61,583 nt of DNA from positions 1-61,583 of the forward strand of contig JAPUET010000023.1 of NCBI GenBank assembly GCA_027492465.1, read 5' to 3'. Position 1 is the first letter of the stretch, and each line of letters starts with the position of its first letter. Source of the stretch: Candidatus Saccharimonadota bacterium. GTDB lineage: Bacteria > Patescibacteriota > Saccharimonadia > Saccharimonadales > Saccharimonadaceae. Positions 1,399 to 40,301 of the stretch are shown piece by piece. The notes beneath the pieces are model-generated. The model was given only the letters and a program-made list of their open reading frames with translations. It was not told the DNA's origin and made no database searches. The position numbers were made by a program, and so were the translations under genes.

Positions 1399-1427
1399 AT
1401 TGTAGCACACTTTTTATAAAAAGTCAA
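1399..1427 (-). promoter_or_regulatory. Sigma70-type promoter for DEAD-box helicase
   Basis: On the minus strand: -35 TTGACT (1422-1427), 17-nt spacer, -10 TACAAT (1399-1404) with an upstream TG dinucleotide. It predicts a start near 1392 and a leader of about 88 nt. Confidence 0.8.
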
Positions 1428-1457
1428 TATGCTTGTGTTCATAGTTTGAATAGAGTA

Positions 1458-1486
1458 TTGCATTTTTGTAAATAATATGCTATAAT
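1458..1486 (+). promoter_or_regulatory. Promoter of GC-rich unit A
   Basis: -35 TTGCAT (1458-1463), 17-nt spacer, extended -10 TGC-TATAAT (1481-1486). It drives the small GC-rich gene at 1525 with a leader of about 30 nt. The promoter is AT-rich and resembles the other promoters of this genome, although the gene does not. Confidence 0.8.
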
Positions 1487-1524
1487 GAACATTAGTCCCA
1501 TACCACTAGAGATAAGGAATAGTC

Positions 1525-1854
1525 ATGGCCGTTCTTGGAATCCTGATGGAGGACACGGCGATTCGTTGGACGAACCGCCGCCACCACAAGACGGCGATGC
1601 GCCAAGCGCGCGAGATCGCGCAGCAGGCACGACGCGATATAACCTCCTTCGGGCGGGCTGCCGACCGTGCCGAACGACGGAAGGTCGCTTCGGCGGAACT
1701 CCCGGCCGGGCGCATGGCCCGAACGGTCCACCGGGCCGGCCAGGCCACCTCGCTTGCGGTCACTCTGGCCGAGTTGCTGGCCGCAGCCACCACAATCCGC
1801 CTCGCTATTCACGAGCTGCGGCAACCCCTACCAAAGAAGGAGGTGAGCGAGTAA
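1525..1854 (+). CDS. Small GC-rich orphan protein, Ala/Arg-rich helical (unit A)
   Basis: Unrecognised 109-residue protein. The start ATG at 1525 follows AAGGA at suitable spacing and a strong promoter. The sequence is rich in Ala, Arg and Gln and should be mostly helical and basic. It shows no signal peptide; a weakly hydrophobic helix lies near residues 75-95. Base composition is unlike the neighbours: the line 1681-1740 has 46 G/C of 60, against about 31 of 60 in ordinary genes here, with many G/C-ending codons. It stands alone between convergent or divergent genes and is closed by a GC-rich hairpin. It belongs to the set of five similar units in the window. Recent transfer from a GC-rich organism (for example an actinobacterial host) is an inference. 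The antisense and +1 frames are also open, so coding is likely but not certain. Confidence 0.65.
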   Translation: MAVLGILMEDTAIRWTNRRHHKTAMRQAREIAQQARRDITSFGRAADRAERRKVASAELPAGRMARTVHRAGQATSLAVTLAELLAAATTIRLAIHELRQPLPKKEVSE

Positions 1855-1862
1855 GTAAATTC

Positions 1863-1930
1863 GCCGCCGAAACGGCCCTCGAAGTCGAGCACACAGCTCC
1901 TTCGCTCCGCTTCGGCGGCCGTTTCATTTT
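1863..1930. terminator. GC-rich hairpin closing unit A
   Basis: Arms GAAACGGCC (1869-1877) and GGCCGTTTC (1917-1925) pair perfectly, and an overlapping GCCGCCGAA/TTCGGCGG pairing is possible. ATTTTA follows on the plus strand. It sits between the unit A gene and the convergent CNNM gene. Confidence 0.65.
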
Positions 1931-1936
1931 ACAGAG

Positions 1937-2965
1937 CTATCGTCGCTGTGTCTCGTCGCGAATTGTACCGACAAGCTCTTCTAACACATCTTCAAGCATC
2001 ACTACGCCCACTAGCCGGTTTCGCTCATTTACCACCTCGGCGATATGCGCACCCGAACGTTGCATTACCGACAGCGCATCGCGTGCAGAATCCGTTGGTC
2101 GAACCGAGGGAAGCGAGCGAATCTTCGAGGCAATCGTCCGACCGTTTTCAAGACTAAGCAAATCTTTGATATGGATATAGCCCTTTAGGCCACCACCTTC
2201 ACGGCGCACCGGAAACCGCGAATAACCTGTTTCAACAACCAGCCGCTCAACTTCAGCCGACGTTGGCTTTGGACTTGTTGCAATCACTCGAGACATGGGC
2301 GTTACCACGCTCATGATTGTTTGGGTGTCAAACTCTAAACTATGCGAGAGTAGCTGCTCTTCCTCCGAACTAAGCAAGCCCTCGCGGTGCGATTCTTTCA
2401 CAAACCCGATTACTTCGTCGCGATCAAAACTACTAGCAATTTCATCGCGCGGCTGTATGCCAATGAGACGGAGGGTTCCATTCGCAATCGCATTTAATAA
2501 GCCAATGACAGGCCGGATGGCGCGAACAATATAAAACAGTACCGGCACAAGCACCAGCGCAGAACGCGTTGGACCAGCAAGGGCAAGGTTCTTTGGTACC
2601 ATTTCTCCTACCACCACATGCACGTACACCATGAGCAGCATTGCAATCACAAACGCCACAATATGGCGAGTGACCTCCGAGAGTCCTGCCGCAGCAAATG
2701 GGGCTTCAAGCAGATGTGCTACAAGTGGTTCGCCAACCGCACCAAATACCAGGCTACATAACGTCACACCCAGCTGAGCACCAGCAAGCATCATCGAAAC
2801 CTGCTCCATAGCGAGCAATGTTATTTTGGCAACGCGCGAACCATTGGCGGCGCGTAGCTCAATACTCGTACGCCTAGCAGACACAAGCGCAAACTCAGCA
2901 CCCACAAAAAACGCGTTTCCCACAAGCATCGTAAATGCTAAAAACGCACTTAGCTCCAGGCTCAC
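1937..2965 (-). CDS. CNNM-domain/CBS-pair membrane protein, short form
   Basis: 342-residue protein of the CNNM (DUF21)/hemolysin-C-like family, linked to divalent-cation (Mg2+) efflux or homeostasis at the membrane. The N-terminal half has about four hydrophobic segments starting at residue 5 (with GAEFALVSARR after the first). A tandem CBS pair follows, ending with the typical VVMLEDVLEELVG. The protein stops right after the second CBS motif, so the C-terminal CorC_HlyC domain present in the upstream paralogue is missing. Its ATG overlaps the TGA of that paralogue by 4 nt, so the two are probably translationally coupled and may form a hetero-oligomer (inference). Substrate not determined. 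Confidence 0.9.
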   Translation of the reverse strand: MSLELSAFLAFTMLVGNAFFVGAEFALVSARRTSIELRAANGSRVAKITLLAMEQVSMMLAGAQLGVTLCSLVFGAVGEPLVAHLLEAPFAAAGLSEVTRHIVAFVIAMLLMVYVHVVVGEMVPKNLALAGPTRSALVLVPVLFYIVRAIRPVIGLLNAIANGTLRLIGIQPRDEIASSFDRDEVIGFVKESHREGLLSSEEEQLLSHSLEFDTQTIMSVVTPMSRVIATSPKPTSAEVERLVVETGYSRFPVRREGGGLKGYIHIKDLLSLENGRTIASKIRSLPSVRPTDSARDALSVMQRSGAHIAEVVNERNRLVGVVMLEDVLEELVGTIRDETQRR

Positions 2966-39454: not shown

Positions 39455-40057
39455 CTATACTTCTTCGGGATTCGAACGATAGCCACCAAAAAGAGGAAAA
39501 CGACCAACCATGATAACAAGTGCTACCGCGCCATTGAAGAGCAGTGCATATGCCGGATAAAGCATACCCATAAGTGTTCCCTCGGTCATTGCGGCAGCAA
39601 GGAGCGCCAAGCCTCCCCCCAACATCGAAAGCGAAAAACATGCCAACGATTCTTCGTACGGCTGACGCCAGGCATGTACGAGAGTTGGCACAAACGCGAT
39701 TGCATCAACCACAAGCGCGATGACGGTGGCTACAAATGGATCTTTTAGTACAATAAGAGCTACCACTCCAAGCGCAGTACCCACTAAACATACTTTATCG
39801 AGTAAAGTTAGGCCACGCGTTCTCGTGCGCCACCCAAATCCTACGATCATACAACAGCCCACAAATGTCACTGCAGATAACAGCGCACTAGGCACTTGCC
39901 CTTCACTTAGTGCCGAGGCGGCCATAATTCCCGCGAGTAGTGTCCACACAGCCCATGACACCATTCGAGGCCGCGCATCGCCGCTTCGCACCGCCGTAAT
40001 ATACGGTATTGAAGCACCCGCCATTACTATTGCCCCTGTTGTTGCTATGATCGACAT
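39455..40057 (-). CDS. Polytopic membrane protein, PQ-loop-like repeats
   Basis: 200-residue protein with about six membrane helices. Two parts look alike: helix-P-Y/T-hydrophobic-loop (ASIPYITAVRSGDARPRMVSWAVWTLL about 15-42) and (AFVPTLVHAWRQPYEESLACFSLSML about 125-150), as in duplicated PQ-loop/SemiSWEET-like transporters. The ATG at 40057 is preferred over 40063 because AGGAGG ends 7 nt before it. A 148-nt leader with an intrinsic terminator and competing pairings precedes the gene, so expression is probably ligand-controlled. Substrate unknown. Confidence 0.75.
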   Translation of the reverse strand: MSIIATTGAIVMAGASIPYITAVRSGDARPRMVSWAVWTLLAGIMAASALSEGQVPSALLSAVTFVGCCMIVGFGWRTRTRGLTLLDKVCLVGTALGVVALIVLKDPFVATVIALVVDAIAFVPTLVHAWRQPYEESLACFSLSMLGGGLALLAAAMTEGTLMGMLYPAYALLFNGAVALVIMVGRFPLFGGYRSNPEEV

Positions 40058-40205
40058 TGCCATGTCCTCCTTTTGTTTTTTGCGGCCATCAAAAAAGCTG
40101 GCCGACGAATATTACTATTGTCGGTCAGCTAGTGCTGAACTGACCACGTGCGAGTTCTGTAGAGAGCATACCTCTATCAGTCACATTGCTGAGAAATCGC
40201 TATTT
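40058..40205 (-). ncRNA. Switch-like leader RNA (candidate riboswitch/attenuator) upstream of the PQ-loop-like gene
   Basis: TSS predicted near 40205. The leader has a small hairpin (TAGAG/CTCTA, 40160-40176), an ACTGA/TCAGT pairing (40177-40181 with 40139-40143), an alternative GGTCAG/CTGACC pairing (40140-40145 with 40123-40128), and a terminator (40091-40130). The switching strand 40139-40145 can pair either with the upstream part, or with the terminator arm, as in riboswitches. No known class was recognised. Confidence 0.6.
40091..40130 (-). terminator. Intrinsic terminator inside the leader of the PQ-loop-like gene
   Basis: Arms 40120-40130 and 40096-40106 pair over 11 positions with a single mismatch, followed on the minus strand by T6. 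It lies about 33 nt upstream of the start codon, upstream of the SD. Confidence 0.85.
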
Positions 40206-40211
40206 ATCTTT

Positions 40212-40240
40212 ATTATACCGTAAGCGATAAAATTTTACAA
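40212..40240 (-). promoter_or_regulatory. Promoter of the switch-like leader
   Basis: Minus strand: -35 TTGTAA (40235-40240), 17-nt spacer, -10 TATAAT (40212-40217). Confidence 0.8.
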
Positions 40241-40260: not shown

Positions 40261-40301
40261 CCCCTACGCTATGTGTAGCGTGCCCATATATAGCGTAGGG
40301 G
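40261..40301. terminator. 10-bp stem between divergent-leader region and Ldh2 gene
   Basis: CCCTACGCTA and TAGCGTAGGG (about 40262-40300) pair perfectly around a 19-nt loop. It lies after the Ldh2 stop (minus) and before the promoter of the leader. T-run poor; possible terminator for the dehydrogenase operon. Confidence 0.5.

Follow-up and report, generated by a model that had tools for sequence, protein, structure and literature searches.

A conserved, structured RNA leader precedes a membrane protein gene on contig JAPUET010000023.1 of a Candidatus Saccharimonadota bacterium, one of the ultrasmall Saccharibacteria. The element lies inside positions 40058-40240 of the 61,583-nucleotide (nt) stretch analyzed here, which we call the window. 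As read from sequence and folding, it is a conserved structured leader with a terminator that shares an arm with a conserved hairpin. We put at roughly two in three the probability that it represents a new, rare and uncatalogued riboswitch class controlling transcription termination of a SWEET-fold transporter gene. The more specific proposal, that the class is confined to Saccharibacteria and senses a compound of this transporter through a two-loop binding site (GGUAUGCUC and CAGCAC), is also probable, with slightly less confidence.

Structure and covariation of the leader

Every gene around 40058-40240 lies on the minus strand. The promoter and terminator do likewise, and a plus-strand reading of the region was therefore rejected. 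A pattern scan identified a sigma-70-type promoter (40212-40240, minus strand, 10/12 matches), in which TTGTAA (40240-40235) is separated by 17 nt from TATAAT (40217-40212), and the transcript is expected to start near 40206. From the promoter, the leader runs for about 110 nt and closes in an intrinsic terminator with T6, so that the whole element spans about 40217 (the -10 box) to 40091. The 183-nt leader as a whole is moderately more stable than its shuffles (folding z -2.97). The conserved RNA consists of a helix P1, a small hairpin P2, a hairpin P3 with the GGUAUGCUC loop and a hairpin P4 with a CAGCAC loop.

Seven such leaders were found in total, in the window and in six other Saccharibacteria that share the genus or the family of the source bacterium or come from another family of the order. 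The first members came from searching the genus and family with the protein and then inspecting the upstream DNA: L034/L002 (UBA1944), L035/L004 (UBA669), L037/L003 (UBA6223) and L044/L010 (reactor MAG17). A covariance model of the P3 and P4 core (R1), with an inserted hairpin cut from the L003 row, was run on the genus, family and order and added two members from the other family, L102 (clean1232) and L103.

A -10 box stands 9-13 nt ahead of P1 in all seven leaders. The 5' arm of P1, GCGAUUUC (40200-40193, minus strand), pairs with the 3' arm, GAACUCGC (40157-40150), through seven of eight pairs, and both arms are assigned on this pairing and on covariation. P1 has no fixed sequence; the arms of the homologs are unrelated yet complementary, a strong covariation signal. 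Across the alignment, 52 of 56 cells of the P1 arms are paired, and among all 5040 re-pairings of the arms only the true one reaches this number, a figure that leans favorable because the register was picked by eye. In an independent best-stem test, the summed stem score exceeded 500 of 500 shuffles. The window's own P1, with its one mismatch, is not significant alone in that test, and the best stem in L037 was not P1. By direct reading, P2 (40177-40192, minus strand) is the small hairpin UCAG-caauguga-CUGA. Its sequence and length vary among homologs, with complementary ends in six of seven members and weak ones in L037.

P3 (40160-40176, minus strand; UAGAG-GUAUGCU-CUCUA) carries the GGUAUGCUC loop and closing segment, which is invariant in 7/7 members, and two of its pairs are changed on both sides among homologs. 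P4 (40123-40145, minus strand; GGUCAGUU-CAGCACU-AGCUGACC), whose CAGCAC loop is likewise invariant, pairs GGUCAG(UU) at 40145-40138 with (AG)CUGACC at 40130-40123, around a core of GGTCAG (40145-40140) and CTGACC (40128-40123). Three P4 pairs are changed on both sides, with 96% of cells paired. Taken jointly, P3 and P4 have 94.8% of cells paired, and at five pairs both sides have changed, compared with 1.4 in shuffles; sliding their partners out of register abolishes both the pairing and the covariation signal. The loop blocks have a mean identity of 81-82% among the seven members, and the flanks 23-34%. A conserved structured 5' leader with covariation, as expected of a riboswitch, is thus present in seven species. 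The initial annotation of this DNA, made from sequence alone, had called for an alignment of homologous loci and would have counted its proposal as refuted if close relatives did not keep the pairing; P1, P3 and P4 covary across the seven members, and the proposal survives this comparison.

The linker between P3 and P4 measures 14-16 nt, and 35 nt in L037, where it holds an extra hairpin. In that leader (about 1400-1620, minus strand), the insertion is a CCGCC/GGCGG hairpin, and a possible 8-bp helix, CACUUGAU/AUCAAGUG, would break P4 ahead of a separate terminator.

The P3 loop also contains an AUG, and in leader-peptide (ribosome-coupled) attenuation this codon would be the start of a small peptide (M-L-P/S...), and the fold would depend on its translation. 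AUG CUC stands at this place in every member, and some members yield short open reading frames (ORFs), such as MLSTELARGQFSTS in the window. The candidate peptides, however, range from 4 to 31 amino acids and have no common sequence past three residues, and the sole purines resembling a Shine-Dalgarno (SD) sequence end 1 nt ahead of the AUG, which is too close. Counted from AUG to CAGCAC, the frame is 2, 1, 0, 2, 2, 1 and 1 among the seven members, so that neither a conserved short ORF nor conserved in-frame codons are found. These differences in frame indicate that CAGCAC is conserved as RNA and not as codons, and they make leader-peptide control very improbable.

P4, the terminator and a proposed switch

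The 3' arm of P4 overlaps an intrinsic terminator (AGCUGACCGAC...GUCGGCCAGCU plus U6; 40091-40130, minus strand). The terminator hairpin pairs CTGACC with GGCCAG (40130-40097) and is followed by T6 (40096-40091); a simple terminator scan missed it because the stem holds a mismatch. As the initial annotation had described, this terminator lies ahead of an SD sequence, AGGAGGA (40071-40065, minus strand, direct reading). The annotation had also named GGTCAG/CTGACC as the terminator arm. That pairing exists on the minus strand but belongs to P4, the putative antiterminator. A further proposal, that 40139-40145 pairs with an upstream, aptamer-like P1, failed, as the best candidate (ACTGA/TCAGT) is a 5-nt match that is not kept in homologs. 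The general idea of a compact switch with mutually exclusive pairings is strongly supported by covariation in seven species and by two invariant loops, with P4 rather than P1 as the switching helix.

The folding energy of the terminator is -16.3 kcal/mol, whereas its shuffles average -4.8 (z -5.2; equaled by 0 of 200 shuffles), and that of the GGTCAG/CTGACC hairpin of P4 is -11.4 kcal/mol (equaled by 2 of 200). When the window leader was folded at nascent lengths, the optimum contained P1-P3 and P4 at 88-104 nt, and the terminator won at 116 nt. In four of the seven members (the window, L034, L035 and L044), the 3' arm of P4 doubles as the 5' arm of the terminator, re-pairing with a downstream arm that is followed by 5-7 U (shuffle fraction 0-0.005). 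In these four, the expression platform and part of the aptamer-like domain are mutually exclusive, as in a riboswitch.

Competition between hairpins of these two energies could also fix a constant ratio of termination to read-through. Under such a plain attenuator or constitutive leader, the structure would serve mRNA stability or fixed read-through with no ligand, and no inducer is known. Against this, the loop nucleotides are invariant and unpaired across divergent species and differing platforms, and this points to a binding site more than to a fixed attenuator. We regard this explanation as improbable.

Because the 3' arm of P4 is also the 5' arm of the terminator, P4 should act as an antiterminator. 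P4 appears to belong to the conserved, presumably ligand-binding unit, and binding should therefore favor read-through (ON). In the mechanism that we propose, the two invariant loops, of P3 and of P4, would bind a small ligand and might touch each other through a UGCU/AGCA contact, and binding would stabilize P4 while RNA polymerase passes. With P4 held, the terminator would be blocked and the gene read; without ligand, the more stable terminator would displace P4 and transcription would stop. The ligand would presumably be the compound moved by the transporter, as the initial annotation had plausibly suggested, or one linked to it. Switches that turn a transporter ON are common where unwanted compounds are exported, as with fluoride and guanidine. 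Since this is the usual logic of exporters, we slightly favor export or detoxification over uptake on demand.

Several observations weigh against the riboswitch proposal. L037, L102 and L103 do not have the same overlap of P4 and terminator: L037 has a separate terminator further downstream, L103 has a weak terminator only, and no U-run terminator was seen in L102. The platforms of these three could even differ in polarity. The possible loop-loop contact of 4 bp between P3 and P4 lacks covariation support because UGCU/AGCA never varies. The gene association tells little about the ligand, as there are only seven members, all ahead of one gene family. The proposal as a whole draws on sequence, folding and a predicted protein fold, and ligand binding and read-through are putative.

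In addition, a very similar pattern would be expected if the ligand were a protein. The main rival is protein-mediated antitermination, in which an RNA-binding protein would recognize the P3 and P4 loops and stabilize P4 in the manner of LicT/BglG. P4, with its invariant loop, overlaps the terminator exactly like the hairpin of a ribonucleic antiterminator (RAT). However, the long covarying P1 and the second invariant loop, in P3, exceed the usual need of such proteins, and just one gene per genome bears the element. Nor does a conserved regulator gene adjoin it: neighbors differ among the ORFs read, although the genome was not searched for antiterminator proteins. We therefore judge a protein binding the loops to be unlikely, and small-ligand control remains our preferred explanation.

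Distribution and the regulated membrane protein

A second covariance model (R2), run over the order, class, phylum and the other family, found no further member. Overall, the searches amounted to about 2000 genome-searches, with many genomes repeated and with strict filters in the large sets. Because the class and phylum searches used these filters and sampled genomes, they do not prove absence outside the order. Scanning 84,980 species genomes for the pattern turned up 26 matches, five of them true members, all Candidatus Saccharibacteria, and the same type of scan in viral contigs gave 20 matches and no member. From the covariance-model and pattern scans, the element is rare and confined to one order, as far as seen.

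Weak covariance-model matches (about 14-24 bits) were inspected at L038-L043, L045-L055, L104 and L105; these lacked the loop pair and were rejected, leaving L044 as the only true member between L038 and L055. Three others in the same score range, L111-L113, were left out of the inspection. Several of the inspected matches resemble coding sequence or a tRNA gene. At L045 (1501-1551, minus strand), from another genus, a P3-like hairpin, TAGAGGTATGATCTCTA, stands just after a promoter-like sequence without P4, and it was not counted.

All seven leaders lie directly upstream of orthologs that form one clade of membrane proteins. The leader-bearing clade has a support of 94/94, and none of 500 label shuffles was as clustered. 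Among 28 other homolog loci checked, none carries the leader, and homologs outside the clade are without it. The leader-linked proteins are 33-51% identical to the window protein. A related-loci scan with the window membrane protein as query gave no match.

The regulated gene (39455-40063, minus strand) encodes the small polytopic membrane protein that the initial annotation had recognized: a 202-amino-acid ORF with seven helices in an AlphaFold2 model (predicted local distance difference test score [pLDDT] 92.7). Two in-frame ATGs follow the SD sequence (window 40055-40063), the first at 40063 and the second at 40057. The SD spacing suits the second better, and the true start may thus be two codons downstream of the start of the longest ORF. 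Further upstream, between an Ldh_2-type gene and the leader promoter, a perfect 12-nt inverted repeat, CCCCTACGCTAT ... ATAGCGTAGGGG (40261-40301), occurs once in the genome; a U-run is absent, and the repeat therefore cannot be called a clear terminator.

Neither Pfam nor NCBIfam gives a match to the protein above cut-off, so that sequence profiles do not place it in the SWEET/PQ-loop superfamily, and a PDB sequence-profile search also gave no match. The model, in contrast to the profiles, has the seven-transmembrane (7-TM) 3+1+3 fold of that superfamily. Its best PDB structure match was cystinosin (8dyp; VIA Z 13.5, 185 residues, 3.3 Å), followed by SWEET (5ctg; Z 12.6) and the KDEL receptor (6i6j; Z 12.4), with Foldseek E-values >0.01 and Z-scores near what helical bundles may reach by chance. 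The top seventeen structure-match rows all belong to the SWEET/PQ-loop superfamily, and most span nearly the full model. The protein thus shares its predicted 7-TM fold with SWEET, SemiSWEET and PQ-loop transporters but differs from them in sequence, with only 6-12% identity. We predict a transporter-like protein of SWEET/PQ-loop fold.

The genes beside leader-bearing loci name no substrate because the neighbors differ between loci. SWEET-like paralogs are common in the family, with as many as six in a single genome, and none of those scanned belongs to a Pfam family. In L103, a second, distant SWEET-like paralog (1723-2322, minus strand) directly precedes the leader-bearing gene and itself has no leader. 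In L044 (1635-2165), the leader is intact, but some 36 residues, amounting to one helix, are missing from inside the membrane protein, which looks like the result of an in-frame deletion or an assembly error.

Saccharibacteria live on host cells, and little is known of what crosses their membranes. If the riboswitch reading is true, an RNA sensor coupled to an unannotated transporter would offer a direct way to approach the substrate of that transporter. In the open literature, we came across no study of natural riboswitches in Saccharibacteria and no mention of a riboswitch together with SemiSWEET or PQ-loop proteins; the single relevant review on Patescibacteria brings up riboswitches as a tool only. 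A leader that responds naturally to a ligand would also be useful for controlled expression in this group, which still needs inducible systems (PMC11665869).

Comparison with known RNA families

The comparison with Rfam suggested in the initial annotation matched no family. A covariance-model scan of the whole window with 4227 Rfam 15 families gave no match at the gathering score. At E<=10, only two models, both of microRNAs, matched near the locus; they fell far short of their gathering scores and lay on the opposite strand, outside the leader. The leaders of six homologous loci had no Rfam 15 match at E<=1.

Purine-type riboswitches resemble the leader in their P1-P2-P3 junction, in two conserved loops, here perhaps in contact, and in terminator control. 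No Rfam covariance-model match to the purine aptamer was obtained, however, and in this leader it is P3 and P4 that end in the conserved loops, with P4 outside the junction, a variable P2, and P4 instead of P1 as the switching helix.

Guanidine-IV (mepA/GGAM-1) is a short ON-type transcriptional switch, often ahead of small transporters, for which a kissing loop has been proposed (PMC7736828, PMC11611296). The Gd4v variant indicates that a fold of this type can respond to different ligands, as yet unidentified (PMC9788692). The leader shares the short ON-type transcriptional layout, with a possible kissing loop and a transporter-like gene downstream. It differs in that the guanidine-IV binding structure takes in the terminator stem (PMC7736828), whereas P4 and the terminator here use one arm in common and are mutually exclusive; the gene family and the phylum also differ. 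Guanidine-IV gave no Rfam 15 match on the leader, although coverage of this class by Rfam 15 is unconfirmed.

A parallel to P4 itself comes from the LicT/BglG RAT antiterminators, in which a hairpin over the 5' part of the terminator serves as antiterminator, the position that P4 occupies. The leader differs from these in its extra P1-P3 domain with an invariant loop of its own. Because there is no Rfam 15 match and the named classes differ in the defining features compared, we place the leader outside them, as a candidate orphan riboswitch.
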